Source: an uncultured Roseburia sp. (GTDB lineage: Bacteria > Bacillota > Clostridia > Lachnospirales > Lachnospiraceae). Taken from it: 40,524 bases of DNA. Location of the stretch: NCBI GenBank assembly GCA_944380515.1, contig CALWHT010000022.1, forward strand, positions 1 to 40,524, in the 5' to 3' direction. The position numbers were made by a program, and so were the translations under genes. A model generated the notes under the pieces. That model worked only from the letters and a program-made list of their open reading frames with translations. It was not told where the DNA came from and searched no databases. This document shows positions 23,736 through 32,344 of the stretch, one piece after another; position 1 is the stretch's first letter; each line of letters begins with the position of its first letter.

Positions 23736-23763
23736 ATCATAGCACTTTTTTCCATAATATCAA
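23736..23763 (-). promoter_or_regulatory. Promoter for lrgAB
   Basis: TTGATA (23763-23758), a 16-base spacer and TATGAT (23741-23736), overlapping the last codons of the oxidoreductase gene. Confidence 0.55.
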
Positions 23764-25094
23764 CCGTCCGCGTGCTCTTTTTTCATTTTTCCGAAACGCT
23801 TCATCTGATGGAGCGCCGGATTGTCAAGCACCTCTCCCGTGTATGCAAACCGTGAGCCGTGACACGGGCAGTCCCAGGTCTGCTCTCCCGCGTTCCATTG
23901 CAGGACACAGCCCATATGGGAGCAGCGACAACCTCCATAAGGTCTTAGGATTCCCTTCATCGCCTCCCAGGCATTGATGGCAAGCTGGGGTTTTAAGATA
24001 TTGCGCGAAGGGGAAAAAATAAGGGCAAATTCGTTTTCTCTCCCCTGTACAAGATCCGATAAAACGATTGCGGAGAGCATCGCACCGGTCATTCCCCACT
24101 TATGAAAACCGCTTGCCACAAATAAATCGGGGGTATGGGAGGAATATCTTCCGATATAGGGCATTCCGTCCAGCGACATGCAGTCCTGCGTTGCCCACTC
24201 GGTCACAATTTCCGCATCCGGGTAATATCTGCGTGCCGCCTCTCGAAGCTGTTCAAAGCCGTCCTTTTTCTTCCCGGTCCGCTCACTGCCTCCGCCAAAA
24301 AGCAGGTAATCTCCGTAGTTTCGGAAGGACAGCCCTCCTTTTTCCCCGTCAATATACATCCCGTCCACCCTGGCGGCCTGCTTGAGCGCCAGCACATAGG
24401 AGCGCTCCTGATACATTTTCAGATAATAGTTTCCCCTGCGGTTGATAAATGGAAAGTGGGTCGCCACAATAACCTTTTCCGCCGCCACGGAGCCTTTGTC
24501 CGTCAGCGCAAAATATTCCGTCATTTCGCGCACCGGCGAATGCTCATAAATATGGAGATTTTTCGCGATCGCCGCCGCAAATTTAAGGGGATGAAACTGC
24601 GCCTGCTTTTCAAACCGCACGGCCCCCACCGTCTCAAACGGAAGGTTCGGATGCTCTATCAATTCCGCCGGATAACCGAGATGCTCTAATGCCCGCACCT
24701 CCCGCTCCAGCTTTTTCCTGTTTTCCCTTTCATAGACAAACGCGTCCGCTTCCTCCATGTCGCAGTCGATCAGCCAGCCCAAATCCCGGTAGCGCTTTAC
24801 CGCAAGCTGATTTGCCTTCAGAAACAGCCCCGCTTTCTCCCTGCCCCCGTATCTTAGCAGCTTATCATAAATCAACCCGTGCTGCGCCGTTATCTTGGCC
24901 GTTGTGTTCCGTGTCACACCGCTGCAAATTTCCCTGCCCTCCAGCAGACAGTAATCGACGCCCGCCTGCTGCAAAAAATACGCACAGAGTATTCCCGCCA
25001 TTCCGCCCCCGATAATCAGCACGTTGGTGCGGATATCTCTCTTTAACGTCCCAAACTCCGGCATTTTCACCGTTTCCGTCCATACAGAACTCAT
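23760..25094 (-). CDS. FAD-dependent oxidoreductase with C-terminal Rieske domain (YhfW-like)
   Basis: A 444-residue cytoplasmic flavoprotein. Residues about 24-60 form the FAD-binding Rossmann motif VLIIGGGMAGILCAYFL within a DAO-type oxidase domain. The C-terminus (about 380-430) is a Rieske [2Fe-2S] domain with CSHMGC and CPCHGS, giving the two Cys/His ligand pairs. The layout matches B. subtilis YhfW, whose substrate is not known to me. AGGAGG lies about six bases before the ATG. It is read on the same strand just before lrgAB but has its own start region facing the degV promoter. Confidence 0.9.
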   Translation of the reverse strand: MSSVWTETVKMPEFGTLKRDIRTNVLIIGGGMAGILCAYFLQQAGVDYCLLEGREICSGVTRNTTAKITAQHGLIYDKLLRYGGREKAGLFLKANQLAVKRYRDLGWLIDCDMEEADAFVYERENRKKLEREVRALEHLGYPAELIEHPNLPFETVGAVRFEKQAQFHPLKFAAAIAKNLHIYEHSPVREMTEYFALTDKGSVAAEKVIVATHFPFINRRGNYYLKMYQERSYVLALKQAARVDGMYIDGEKGGLSFRNYGDYLLFGGGSERTGKKKDGFEQLREAARRYYPDAEIVTEWATQDCMSLDGMPYIGRYSSHTPDLFVASGFHKWGMTGAMLSAIVLSDLVQGRENEFALIFSPSRNILKPQLAINAWEAMKGILRPYGGCRCSHMGCVLQWNAGEQTWDCPCHGSRFAYTGEVLDNPALHQMKRFGKMKKEHADG

Positions 25095-27075: not shown

Positions 27076-27963
27076 TTAATCCTCAAACGGAATCACGGCT
27101 CCGTCATAAGTATCGTTGATGTACTGGCGGATTGCATCAGATTTTAGTACCTCCACAAGCGCCCGGATACCCGCCGCGTTTTCATTGCCTTCCTTCACGG
27201 CAATCACGTTTACATATGTCTGTGCCGCCTCGGAATCCGAGGTTTCATAGGCGATGGCATCCTCCCGCACGGAATAGCCCGCCTGAAGCGCATAGTTTCC
27301 GTTGAGCACTACGAACGCGACCTCCGGCGCGACCCTCGCCACCTGCTCTGCCGCCAGCTCCTGAATCTTTACGTTTGAGGGATTTTCCACAATATCGTTG
27401 ACGGTCGCCTCAAGTCCCGCGTCCTCCCGCAGCGTAATGATACCGTTTGCCTCAAGCAGCAGCAGTGCCCGTGCCTCATTGGTCGTGTCGTTTGGCACCG
27501 CAATCGTATCACCCTCTGCCAGCTCCGAAAGGCTGCTTTTCGTTCCCGGATAAATTCCGAACGGCTCATAGTGGATGCCTCCCGCGTTGACTAAATGCGT
27601 TCCTTTTTCCGCATTGAAATTTTCAAGATAGGGAATGTGCTGAAAATAATTTGCGTCAAATTCCCCGCTTTCGACCACCTCATTTGGCAGAACATAGTCA
27701 TCAAAAATAGTGATTTCCAAATCCCAGCCCTCGTCTGCAAGAATTTTCTTTGCCTCCTCCAAAATCTCGGCGTGCGGCGTCGCTGAAGCCGCGACAGTAA
27801 TCACGCCTTCTTCTGTCTGCGTATCACTTTCCAAAGTCTCGGTCTTAACTCCGCCGTTATCCGTGGCGCCGCCCGCATTTTCCCCGGCCGCATTGCCGCA
27901 GCCCGCAAACGCCGCTGCCGCAAGCGCTCCCGTCAAAATCAATGTGAATACTTTTTTCTTCAT
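27076..27963 (-). CDS. metQ: Methionine-binding lipoprotein MetQ
   Basis: The extracellular substrate-binding lipoprotein of the methionine ABC importer (NlpA family). The 295-residue chain has a signal peptide MKKKVFTLILTGALAAAAFA with lipobox FAGC, Cys22, then a linker rich in Gly/Asn/Thr. The binding domain starts near ITVAASATPHAEILE and shows FDANYFQHIPYLENFN, typical of MetQ. The ATG at 27963 has GGAGGAG about eight bases upstream; the earlier ATG lies over the ribosome site. It is last in metN-metI-metQ, 20 bases after metI. No U-rich terminator is obvious after it. Confidence 0.93.
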   Translation of the reverse strand: MKKKVFTLILTGALAAAAFAGCGNAAGENAGGATDNGGVKTETLESDTQTEEGVITVAASATPHAEILEEAKKILADEGWDLEITIFDDYVLPNEVVESGEFDANYFQHIPYLENFNAEKGTHLVNAGGIHYEPFGIYPGTKSSLSELAEGDTIAVPNDTTNEARALLLLEANGIITLREDAGLEATVNDIVENPSNVKIQELAAEQVARVAPEVAFVVLNGNYALQAGYSVREDAIAYETSDSEAAQTYVNVIAVKEGNENAAGIRALVEVLKSDAIRQYINDTYDGAVIPFED

Positions 27964-27983
27964 TATTTTCTCCTCCATCTTTT

Positions 27984-28643
27984 CTATTTTCTTTTATCCA
28001 GGTGCGAGGCAAGCTTCATGCCTGCCGTCTGGAAAATCTGAAACAAAATCACCAGTAAAATGACTGTCACAACCATGATGTCTGTCTGCCATCTGGTATA
28101 GCCATAGCGGATCGCGATATCGCCGAGACCTCCGCCGCCGACGGTTCCCGCCATCGCGGAATATCCGAGTATGGTTCCAAGTGAAATGGTCGCTCCGACA
28201 ATCAGTGATGTCCGCGCCTCCACCAGCATCACCCGGGTAATCACCGCAAAATCCGACGCTCCCATCGAGCGCGCCGCCTCGATGACGCCCGCATCCACCT
28301 CCTTTAAGGAGGATTCGACCATCCTCGCAATGTAAGGCGCCGCCGCAATCACAAGCGGCACAATGGTCGCCGTCGGCCCGTAGCTTTTTCCCACCACAAA
28401 TCTGGTAAACGGAATCAGCACAATCAGTAAAATGAGGAACGGCACGCTCCGAATCAGATTTGCCGTTACGTCGAGCAGCTTATAAATCACGGCGTTTGGA
28501 CGGATGCCGTCCCTGTCGGTCACCGCCAGGAGGATTCCCATCGGAAGCCCTATCACGTAACCGATTACGGTAGACATCAGCGTCATGTAAAGCGTATCGC
28601 GGATGCCCTCCAGCAGCATGATGATTACCTGATTATTCCACAT
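27984..28643 (-). CDS. metI: Methionine ABC transporter permease MetI
   Basis: The membrane channel subunit of the MetNIQ importer, 219 residues with five hydrophobic helices. The EAA loop IEAARSMGASDFAVITRVML (about 120-139) docks on MetN. GTVGGGGLGDIAIRYGY near the C-terminus is the MetI hallmark. GGAGG lies about nine bases before the ATG. It overlaps metN by 11 bases, so translation is coupled. Confidence 0.94.
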   Translation of the reverse strand: MWNNQVIIMLLEGIRDTLYMTLMSTVIGYVIGLPMGILLAVTDRDGIRPNAVIYKLLDVTANLIRSVPFLILLIVLIPFTRFVVGKSYGPTATIVPLVIAAAPYIARMVESSLKEVDAGVIEAARSMGASDFAVITRVMLVEARTSLIVGATISLGTILGYSAMAGTVGGGGLGDIAIRYGYTRWQTDIMVVTVILLVILFQIFQTAGMKLASHLDKRK

Positions 28644-29670
28644 CTCCCGTCACCTCCTCAATCTCCAGTCCTTTTTCCTTTAGATATTTTTCGATATCAA
28701 TTTGAAGATGTCCGTCCTCGGGCAGCCCGAGAATCATCTCCCCCTTCGCGACCCCGCCGACATTTTTGGTGTCCGCCCGCAGGATATTGACCGGAGCCCC
28801 GAATTTCAAAATCATATTTGCAATCAGCGGTTCAAACGCCGAATTTTCCGAAAAAACAATACGCAGCTTTTTGCCGCCCGACATCCGCTCCGGAAGCACC
28901 GGTCTGTCTCCCTCGCCCGCGCCGCCCGGCCCGTCACGCAGGATTAATTCCCGCGCCGCCCGCGATTTCGGATGGGAAAAAATTTCCTCCACCCGTCCGT
29001 TTTCCACAAGCACGCCGCGCTCAATGATGGCGACACGGTTACAGACCTCCCGAATTACCGACATCTGGTGAGTAATGATGATAATCGTGATTCCCAGACT
29101 GCGGTTGATTTCCCGCAGCAGCTCCAGTATGGCGGCCGTCGTCTGCGGGTCGAGCGCGCTGGTTGCCTCGTCACAGAGCAGGATTTTCGGCTCACATGCC
29201 AGCGCCCTCGCGATGGCGACACGCTGTTTCTGTCCGCCGGAAAGCTGCGCCGGATATGCCCGCTCCTTTTCCGCAAGCCCGACCATCGCAAGCAGCTCGC
29301 GCGCCCGCTGCCTCGCCTCGGATTTCTTTTTCCCGGAAAGCCGCATCGGGAAACAGATATTATCGAGCACATTTTTCTGCATCAGCAGATTAAAATTCTG
29401 AAATATCATTGCAATCTCACTGCGCTGTACACGCAGCTCTTTTTCCGTGAGACTGCCGAGCTCCCTGCCCTCGATGAGTACCTGCCCGTCGGTGGGACGC
29501 TCCAGATAATTGAAGCACCGCACCAACGTGCTTTTTCCCGCGCCGGACATTCCGATGATTCCATAGATGTCCCCCTGCTCCACGGTCAGATTGATGTCGC
29601 TTAACGCCTCCACGGTCATCCCTTTTTGTGTAAAGCTTTTATATAAATGCCTGACTTCTATCGCCGCCAT
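28633..29670 (-). CDS. metN: Methionine ABC transporter ATP-binding protein MetN
   Basis: The ATPase of the methionine importer, 345 residues. Walker A GMSGAGKS (40-47), LSGGQ followed by KQRVAIARA (about 140-155), Walker B ILLCDEATSAL (about 157-167) and an H-loop in IIITHQM are all present. The C-terminal NIL/ACT-like domain (about 265-345), through which methionine inhibits the transporter in relatives, is present. GGGAGG lies six to eight bases before the ATG. It is first in metNIQ, directly after the leader peptide and terminator described below. Its regulation by a leader peptide is inferred from sequence only. Confidence 0.95.
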   Translation of the reverse strand: MAAIEVRHLYKSFTQKGMTVEALSDINLTVEQGDIYGIIGMSGAGKSTLVRCFNYLERPTDGQVLIEGRELGSLTEKELRVQRSEIAMIFQNFNLLMQKNVLDNICFPMRLSGKKKSEARQRARELLAMVGLAEKERAYPAQLSGGQKQRVAIARALACEPKILLCDEATSALDPQTTAAILELLREINRSLGITIIIITHQMSVIREVCNRVAIIERGVLVENGRVEEIFSHPKSRAARELILRDGPGGAGEGDRPVLPERMSGGKKLRIVFSENSAFEPLIANMILKFGAPVNILRADTKNVGGVAKGEMILGLPEDGHLQIDIEKYLKEKGLEIEEVTGDVE

Positions 29671-29690
29671 TTTTCATCCTCCCTCGCAAT

Positions 29691-29727
29691 AAAAAAAACA
29701 GGCTGCCGCGCGTGCATACCTGTTTTT
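29691..29727 (-). terminator. Leader terminator (attenuator) of metNIQ
   Basis: On the minus strand AAAAAACAGG pairs with CCTGTTTTTT, with an inner TGC/GCA, and a run of eight Ts completes it. It lies about 20 bases upstream of the metN ATG and 30 bases after the leader-peptide stop. Its loop GCACGC (29710-29715) is complementary to GCGTGC in the last codons of the leader peptide. Confidence 0.8.
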
Positions 29728-29758
29728 TCAAACGTTTTTTCCGAAACGATTCCCCAAA

Positions 29759-29878
29759 TCAGATATTCAAACGCACGCAAAAATCCCTTATGCTGCACAT
29801 ACACATCCTGCCGCACATGGTCCCGTTCTCACACATCATCATTGTTAAGCTTGTGTCTGCCGCATGTTTTGTATGCAT
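29759..29878 (-). CDS. Met/Cys-rich leader peptide of metNIQ (39 residues)
   Basis: This 39-codon ORF lies between the metNIQ promoter and its leader terminator. AAAGGAG is eight bases before the ATG, a near-perfect ribosome site. The peptide begins MHTKHAADTSLT and residues 13-28 are MMMCENGTMCGRMCMC: six Met and four Cys in 16 residues. It ends SIRDFCVRLNI and stops at 29759. No signal peptide or family match is apparent. The composition, position and following terminator fit a leader peptide whose slow translation, when charged Met- or Cys-tRNA is scarce, allows readthrough into metN. An S-box or T-box, the usual Firmicutes devices, is not seen. A functional metal-binding peptide is the main alternative. 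Confidence 0.8.
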   Translation of the reverse strand: MHTKHAADTSLTMMMCENGTMCGRMCMCSIRDFCVRLNI

Positions 29879-29923
29879 ATCTGATTCTCCTTTCCATGAA
29901 TAGTTGTCTGCTTCGATATTGCT

Positions 29924-29953
29924 ATTATAGCAACCGCAAAGAAAATGTGTTAA
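29924..29953 (-). promoter_or_regulatory. Promoter for the metNIQ leader
   Basis: TTAACA (29953-29948), an 18-base spacer and a perfect TATAAT (29929-29924). The start near 29917 leaves about 25 bases before the leader-peptide ribosome site. Confidence 0.65.
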
Positions 29954-29963
29954 TACCGGAAAC

Positions 29964-30002
29964 CTTGAGTTGGTTATAGGGTAAACCTATAGCCAACTCA
30001 AG
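29964..30002. repeat. Perfect 17-bp palindrome with mirrored promoter-like hexamers
   Basis: CTTGAGTTGGTTATAGG and CCTATAGCCAACTCAAG pair around GTAAA with one G-U. Each strand contains TTGAGT, 17 bases and TATA(A/G)C, so the palindrome could be a two-way promoter or an operator. It lies between metNIQ and the XRE regulator. Confidence 0.6.
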
Positions 30003-31435: not shown

Positions 31436-32344
31436 TCATTTCATCACATGAACCTTATATTTTTGCAGTTCTTCTATATACAGCTCGCCGATGTGGCTGA
31501 CCTTTGCCCCCTTGCGCTTCACATAGCCGATACGCATCTTTTCGCTCTCCTTTAGCGGTATGGCAATGTAATCGCTGCCGTTTAATTCCTCACAGATAAT
31601 ACCGGAGCAAAGCGTGTAGGCGTTAATCCCAACCATAAGATTCAAAAGCGTCGCGCGGTCGTTCGCCTTGATCAGCCGCTTATATTCATAGGTGCTTTTC
31701 ATTTCCTCGGCAAGATAAAGCGAATTGTTTTTCCCCTGGTCAAAGGACAGGCAGGGGTATTCGTCCAGCTCAGCCATGCAGATGACATCCTTTCCCGCCA
31801 GCGGATGGCCAGACCAGAGATAGACATAGGTGTCACAGGAAAACAGCTCGATAAATTCCAGCCCGTGCTCCCGAATGATTTTCGTCATCACCTTTTCATT
31901 AAACCCGTTCAGATACAAAACGCCGATTTCGCTTTTAAAATCGCGGACATTCTCCACCACGTCATAGGTGGTCGTCTCATGCACCGCAAATTCGTACTGC
32001 TCCATGCCGGCTTTTTTGACGGTCTCCACAAACGCTTTGACCGCGAAGGTGTAGTGCTGCATGGAAACACTGAATTTTTCCCGCGTCTGCTTGTCGATGT
32101 ATTTGGAGGAAAGCAGGGCAAACTGCTCGGTCACCTGTCTGGCATAGCCGAGAAACTCCTCTCCCTCCGGTGTGACGATAATTCCCCGGTTGGAGCGCAG
32201 AAAAATATCCAGCCCGATTTCCGCTTCCAGTTCACGTATGGTTTCGGAAAGACTGGGCTGGGAGATAAAAAGCTTTTTTGCCGCCTCGTTCATGGAACCG
32301 CAGTCCGCGATGGCAAGCGCGTATTTTAACTGTTGCAGCGTCAT
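31436..32344 (-). CDS. LysR-family transcriptional regulator
   Basis: A 302-residue regulator with the N-terminal winged helix-turn-helix (about 1-60, MTLQQLKYALAIADCGSMNE and EAAKKLFISQPSLSETIREL) and a periplasmic-binding-like effector domain from about 90. The helix contains the usual S-Q-(P/S)-x-L-S pattern. AAGGA lies about six bases before the ATG. Its ATG overlaps the YitT stop by four bases, so it is the last gene of a 33222-31436 operon. Target and effector are unknown; the neighbours are membrane proteins, not a metabolic operon. Confidence 0.9.
   Translation of the reverse strand: MTLQQLKYALAIADCGSMNEAAKKLFISQPSLSETIRELEAEIGLDIFLRSNRGIIVTPEGEEFLGYARQVTEQFALLSSKYIDKQTREKFSVSMQHYTFAVKAFVETVKKAGMEQYEFAVHETTTYDVVENVRDFKSEIGVLYLNGFNEKVMTKIIREHGLEFIELFSCDTYVYLWSGHPLAGKDVICMAELDEYPCLSFDQGKNNSLYLAEEMKSTYEYKRLIKANDRATLLNLMVGINAYTLCSGIICEELNGSDYIAIPLKESEKMRIGYVKRKGAKVSHIGELYIEELQKYKVHVMK

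Follow-up and report, generated by a model that had tools for sequence, protein, structure and literature searches.

What controls the metNIQ operon of an uncultured Roseburia species? The question is raised by a 40,524-nucleotide stretch of its DNA (the window), in which the operon is preceded by a short open reading frame crowded with methionine and cysteine codons. We consider it highly likely, from comparison of related loci, that this region is a transcription attenuator of the trp type, worked by a translating ribosome, and that it is probably preceded in action by a CmhR/MtaR-like activator of the LysR type. The amino acids sensed would be methionine and, probably, cysteine too.

The features of the locus are collected in Table 1. 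The original prediction had placed here a promoter, a Shine-Dalgarno site, a 39-codon reading frame with six Met and four Cys in residues 13-28, and a terminator with eight Ts about 20 bases before metN; direct reading of the minus strand finds each of them. The promoter agrees with consensus at 11 of 12 positions and has a spacer of 18. The leader ORF translates as MHTKHAADTSLTMMMCENGTMCGRMCMCSIRDFCVRLNI, and among the 354 ATG-initiated ORFs of at least 20 amino acids in the window it has the highest density of Met plus Cys (10 in 20 residues; the next have 7 and 6). The metN ATG, at 29670, lies 20 nt past the T run. The second strand of the putative antiterminator is CAGGUAUGCACGCG, which in the terminator makes up the 5' arm with the loop. 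A simple terminator scan (loop limit 8) listed none at the leader, probably because the hairpin, which is visible in folds, is bulged, so that its uninterrupted stem leaves a loop above that limit. The products of the operon match NCBIfam models for MetN, MetI and MetQ, with only MetI above the cut-off. Elsewhere in the window, positions 23760-25094 of the minus strand appear to encode an FAD oxidoreductase that ends in a Rieske-like segment at its C-terminus; its NCBIfam scores fall far short of the cut-offs.

Table 1. Positions of features at and around the metNIQ leader, in window coordinates
Feature	Positions	Strand	Basis and remarks
Inverted repeat CTTGAGTTGG...CCAACTCAAG	29964..30002	.	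Direct reading; encloses the 17-bp LysR-type box TATAGGTTTACCCTATA (29975-29991)
Gene for a LysR-type regulator that may be the partner of the box	31436..32344	-	Pfam HTH_1 and LysR_substrate above cut-off
Promoter TTAACA-18-TATAAT	29924..29953	-	Direct reading; -35 TTAACA 29953-29948, -10 TATAAT 29929-29924
Shine-Dalgarno site of leader ORF, AAAGGAG	29887..29893	-	Direct reading
Leader ORF, 39 codons and stop	29759..29878	-	Direct reading; recurrence in relatives
Codons 13-28, rich in Met and Cys, where the ribosome is proposed to stall	29795..29842	-	Direct reading and comparison
Putative antiterminator strand (GCGUGCG ... AUAUCUGAUUU)	29755..29778	-	Duplex and cognate test; overlaps the last codons and stop of the leader
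Intrinsic terminator	29691..29729	-	Folds; hairpin 29729-29692, 8-T run to 29691
metN ribosome site GGGAGG	29678..29683	-	Direct reading
metN, methionine ABC transporter ATPase	28633..29670	-	TIGR02314 353 bits, below curated cut-off 499.7
metI, permease	27984..28643	-	NF008049 217.5 bits, above curated cut-off 212
metQ, substrate-binding lipoprotein	27076..27978	-	NF008285 and TIGR00363, both below cut-offs

Two established RNA devices for methionine genes were considered and rejected for this locus. Rfam includes a T-box model, and neither it nor the S-box model (RF00162) has a match in the window at the gathering score (the original prediction had seen neither element here); 20 leader loci likewise gave no Rfam match at that score. 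The single S-box (SAM-I riboswitch) found in this genome lies on contig C50 (L284), upstream of a SAM synthetase gene identified with Pfam.

Leaders of this kind recur upstream of metN. Upstream regions were drawn from same-genus genomes, from genomes of named species and from a family survey of 250 genomes, nearly one per genus, of which 116 have metN at E 1e-90 or better. Of 229 loci, 5 were set aside because no metN start could be used; removal of 10 duplicate or too short regions from the other 224 left 214 distinct ones. Under a strict rule (an ATG, a Shine-Dalgarno-like site and at least 6 Met plus Cys within 20 residues), 44 of the 214 carry a leader. The reverse strand yields 1, and ten dinucleotide shuffles yield 1, 0, 0, 0, 0, 0, 0, 0, 0 and 2; a GTG-started leader at L144 stands outside this count. 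Applied to other pairs of residues, the rule gave forward and reverse counts of 38 and 2 for MH (Met again), 4 and 0 for WC, 6 and 0 for DE, 5 and 5 for KN, 5 and 5 for PH, 25 and 16 for IL, 27 and 13 for ST, and 27 and 8 for RK. Chance enrichment in Met and Cys was rejected on the shuffles and the reverse strand, together with the leader's top rank among the ORFs of the window.

The leader is conserved in part and its occurrence is patchy. It was found in 30 of 115 regions from the family survey, 6 of 71 from named genomes and 9 of 29 from the genus (the window belongs to both the first and the last count), so the proposal that the ORF and its Met/Cys codons would be conserved in close relatives held for those nine and failed for the other 20. 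Leader peptide and last 120 nt are identical in the same-genus region L033 and in L052, a Roseburia hominis MAG. A MetN tree of 145 rows, built by a quick method, cannot account for the distribution of leaders with fewer than 16 gains or losses, of which well-supported branches force 12; shuffled labels need 33; family A rows had been chosen by profile, which favours clustering. These step counts indicate that leaders are inherited in places and have been gained or lost often. Two types are prominent among the leaders, labelled here for the present analysis: the window's type, approximately MMMCxxGxMCxxMCM, and family A, MQMNMxMMxGMxxMCRM. After the start codon, Met makes up 20.8% of the residues of the 44 leaders and Cys 10.1%. 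Met outnumbers Cys in 39 of the 44. All 44 contain Cys, but the two residues had been counted together in the rule that selected them.

Three further loci deserve description in their own right. A DNA search of 60 genomes with the leader gave one strong match besides the window, in genome G006, on a contig that ends soon afterwards. There (L003) the promoter region is nearly identical, 97% over 71 nt; the likeness breaks off at the Shine-Dalgarno site of the leader, beyond which the end of the contig shows no relation to the window. No metI was found in this genome, which is 84% complete, and loss of the operon or a fault of assembly is possible. In two same-genus loci that have no Met/Cys ORF (L031 and L029), long imperfect inverted repeats, spotted by eye, fill the metN leader and look like small mobile repeats.

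If the region is an attenuator, its RNA should be able to adopt two exclusive structures, and comparison of the leaders supports this prediction. A hairpin followed by a U run stands between leader and metN in 43 of the 44 (L098 has none by the rule used; those of L069, L070 and L082 are weak or distant and were excluded from tests with n = 40). In a cognate test, duplexes were computed between the segment around each leader's stop codon and each terminator's 5' arm plus loop. After centring, a leader's pairing with its own terminator was 2.41 kcal/mol stronger than that with the terminators of other leaders (n = 40, z -5.75), a value as low being reached in 0 of 100,000 permutations; with the three excluded leaders kept, z was -6.21 (n = 43). 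Relatedness inflates the overall figure, and the values within sub-groups are therefore safer: P 0.0375 (18 leaders), 0.028 (11) and 0.015 (11). The same test applied to control segments gave P 0.97 for the 5' UTR and P 0.45 for the Met cluster. In a simple duplex test against shuffles, 14 of 43 single leaders reached p 0.05, with a mean z of -1.48. Taken across leaders, these results show that the 3' segment of the leader is predicted to be able to capture the 5' side and loop of the terminator, in place of the terminator itself.

Base changes that preserve pairing were sought within the two leader types. For family A, the antiterminator was counted on 11 of 18 leaders with the structure taken from L197; the other seven (L198, L220, L225, L226, L230, L232 and L247) were excluded by eye as not alignable. 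In the 11, 93.0% of cells are paired, against 25-50% when the structure is slid. Its covariation score was reached by 2 of 500 shuffles, and its 3 pairs changed on both sides by 42 of 500. The terminator of the same 11 is 99.2% paired, with 6 pairs changed on both sides, a number reached by 0 of 500 shuffles. The family A motif UGUAUGGAUUGUGA lies within the ORF in some members and past the stop in others, which argues that it is kept as RNA and not as peptide. It begins between -22 and 0 of the end of the stop codon in 11 of 16 members, 8-11 nt past the stop, at or beyond the edge of the ribosome, in 4, and 42 nt before the stop in one.

For the window's type, six leaders chosen by eye (the window, L023, L134, L136, L158 and L147) share the layout of the helix while differing in letters. 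A AUCUGAUU-like segment, found at -6 to +15 of the end of the stop in five of the six, pairs with a CAGGU-like stretch of the terminator arm; the bases that precede the segment pair with the terminator loop. Such motifs occur 7 times in 84,009 nt of 170 upstream regions that have no leader. In the window, the antiterminator duplex reaches -17.5 kcal/mol over the terminator arm and loop (shuffle p 0.06); the local hairpin that lacks the 3' arm has -21.4. The original prediction had proposed pairing of GCGTGC near the end of the ORF with GCACGC in the terminator loop. That complementarity is present (29778-29773 with 29715-29710), but six bases is too short, and the pairing spans both arm and loop. 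Base changes among relatives preserve the predicted competition of the leader's end with the terminator. A trp-leader-style device for Met and probably Cys is supported by comparison, with two amendments to what had been drawn: the antiterminator helix would be larger and made of two parts, and a LysR box is present at the promoter as well.

The proposed device would work as follows. When methionine (or cysteine) is short, the ribosome would stall at codons 13-28, leaving the segment around the stop codon free, so that the antiterminator would form first and RNA polymerase would read into metNIQ. When both are ample, the ribosome would run to the stop and cover that segment, and the terminator would end transcription. 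Folds of the window leader with the ribosome footprint blocked follow this scheme: a ribosome placed at codon 28 leaves the antiterminator, and one placed at the stop leaves the terminator. When no footprint is blocked, the terminator forms in the complete RNA, and the antiterminator in RNA cut at the loop. The position of the antiterminator strand suits masking at the stop codon in the window. A position test over 40 leaders found the best automatic duplex overlapping the terminating ribosome in 23, a chance result (22.5 expected).

Folds over the 40 leaders covered two lengths of transcript. At full length and equilibrium (n = 40), the terminator forms with a value of 0.775 when the ribosome is stalled, 0.913 when it is at the stop and 0.885 in shuffled sequences (p 0.06 against shuffled). 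In the complete transcript the terminator is thus mostly intact even in the stalled state, falling below 0.5 in 5 of 40 leaders and standing at 0.55 in the window. We take the decisive stage to be the one before the 3' arm is made. There, sequestration of the 5' arm has a value of 0.72 for a stalled ribosome, 0.31 for one at the stop and 0.54 in shuffled sequences (n = 40; Wilcoxon 1.8e-7 against shuffles). The window taken alone gives borderline results (shuffle p 0.06 for the duplex and 0.10 for the fold before the 3' arm), and the z of its whole-leader fold is 0.22. The strength of the case for a predicted attenuator is comparative.

A second RNA structure lies within the sensing codons of family A. 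In 14 of its 18 leaders (for example L197, L202, L203 and L205) the codons around the second Met run fold into a 7-bp hairpin, with 98.0% of cells paired; the other four (L220, L225, L230 and L232), excluded from the count beforehand, have a hairpin of another register. Three of the seven pairs changed on both sides, a number reached by 35 of 500 shuffles, and the covariation score was reached by 0 of 500. This hairpin may be an RNA polymerase pause hairpin, as in the trp leader.

The same hairpin bears on a rival account, in which the ribosome is arrested by the nascent peptide, whose ligand might be Met, SAM or a metal, and not by empty Met or Cys tRNAs, with the same downstream RNA switch. 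Residues other than Met are indeed conserved in the family A consensus, and the Cys common to all 44 leaders, which the filter counted along with Met, could be read in the same way. However, in 14 of the 18 family A leaders the hairpin includes the codons for the conserved Gly, Cys and Arg, and its pairing is kept while residues change (GGC, GAC or AGC with TGC or TGT, and with CGT or TGT), which indicates that RNA pairing explains much of the residue conservation in this family. The C-termini of the leaders, moreover, are variable in length and sequence. We regard arrest by the peptide as unlikely.

Still less likely is that the ORF encodes a small protein with a task of its own, such as a metal-binding Met/Cys peptide, while the terminator merely tunes expression of the operon. 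Peptides rich in Met and Cys can bind soft metals, and of 26 leaders two have a weak match to a Pfam zinc ribbon (E 5.5e-4 at best). This was one of four unrelated Pfam models, each matching weakly in 1 or 2 of the 26; NCBIfam matched one of the 26, as an MFS transporter at E 0.012, and the leader of the window matched neither collection. A family A profile, built from 17 leaders and run over 250 whole genomes, has no match away from metN at E 0.01 or better. Besides the 17 rows from which it was built, it matches one leader, that of L200; all 18 lie on a metN contig and just upstream of metN; because 17 of them are the profile's own rows, the weight rests on the lack of matches elsewhere at that threshold. 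A mixed profile (A1), run over 62 same-genus genomes, gave 8 matches, 6 of them at metN and 2 elsewhere (E 0.04 and 0.05) that look like chance. This profile missed the window's own leader, although that is one of its rows, and it is thus insensitive. The metN-only matches of family A at E 0.01 and the stray nature of the NCBIfam and Pfam matches speak against a free-standing small protein family, and the antiterminator motif of family A, kept whether it falls inside or after the ORF, also speaks against a role for the peptide.

The attenuator that we favour probably works behind a promoter that is itself regulated. A palindrome absent from the original prediction, TATAGGTTTACCCTATA, lies just upstream of the -35 element. 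It is the sole exact TATAGG-N5-CCTATA site in its genome, where nine others have one mismatch and a reversed control pattern has 13. LysR-type boxes occur in 22 of the 214 metN upstream regions and in none of the regions in each of 5 mononucleotide shuffles, and downstream of the box the sequence ATTAACAC recurs in same-genus loci. In 13 of 19 same-genus loci (L251-L269), a counterpart of the LysR gene shares the strand of metN, and 123-535 nt separate its end from metN; in the window, two opposite-strand ORFs lie between the LysR gene and the metN locus. A CmhR/MtaR-like LysR activator probably sets promoter activity ahead of attenuation, and the presence of its putative box at the promoter would make attenuation the second layer of control. 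That the box alone regulates, leader and terminator being unimportant remnants, is hardly credible: the box does occur at metN with and without the leader, and most same-genus metN regions (20 of 29) have no leader, but pairing kept through base changes is unexpected of a remnant, and by the pattern used only 6 of the 44 leader loci have the box, so that leaders also stand without it.

A codon-counting attenuator for Met and Cys would be a further RNA device for methionine supply, one that would give an uptake operon in gut bacteria a readout of tRNA charging in place of SAM; its candidates recur across Lachnospiraceae and a few other Clostridia. A more specific reading, which we hold tentatively and incline slightly to doubt, is that of a dual Met-and-Cys gauge of a sort not described in Bacillota. 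The alternating codons would report the whole sulfur amino acid pool, the hairpin in the sensing codons of one sub-family may pause RNA polymerase and keep it in step with the ribosome, and the LysR activator would supply a second input.

How does this candidate compare with known systems? Excerpts of PMC4239095 place most methionine genes of Firmicutes under S-boxes, and those of Lactobacillaceae under T-boxes. Among the open-licence papers listed by literature searches, titles and opening lines of abstracts describe no Met or Met/Cys leader peptide in Bacillota, in agreement with the original prediction, which knew of no such device in this group. Leader-peptide attenuation with other amino acids and other genes is described in Bacillota, according to excerpts, for the His leader peptides of hisS and hisZ in bacilli (PMC2965389) and for a leucine-rich attenuator peptide of Staphylococcus aureus (PMC5794164). 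With trp-type attenuators such as that of ilvB1, as presented in the extract of PMC13236596, our candidate shares regulatory codons, a terminator and a predicted antiterminator that exclude each other, and, as proposed, masking of about 26 nt by a ribosome at the stop; it differs in the amino acids sensed, in the gene controlled and in family A's covarying hairpin within the sensing codons. The polycysteine leaderless ORFs of mycobacteria (Canestrari 2020, as cited in the extract of PMC13236596) also use Cys codons as a sensor; the process there is called translation attenuation of cysteine genes, and the title names cysteine only. The streptococcal CmhR/MtaR LysR regulon (excerpts of PMC5359408) has a 17-bp TATAG...CTATA palindrome at methionine genes, with the site TATAGTTTSAAACTATA; the outer bases of the putative site here agree with the streptococcal consensus, and the inner bases differ.

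The closest likeness is to metL of Streptomyces lividans TK24, a short ORF upstream of metNIQ proposed as an attenuator in the excerpted text of PMC8079986, so that a Met/Cys leader before this operon has already been predicted there, without a clear terminator. Its sequence holds CMCRRMC, in which the significance of Cys is our own reading, the excerpt naming methionines and threonines. That ORF belongs to an actinobacterium and has a leaderless start, and termination is called unclear in the excerpt, a typical Rho-independent terminator being missing. The present leader, by contrast, comes from Bacillota and combines an ORF led by a Shine-Dalgarno site with a terminator, a predicted antiterminator and a LysR box. 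With a similar mixture of codons before the same operon in two phyla, as far as the excerpt allows, comparison of the two leaders is invited.
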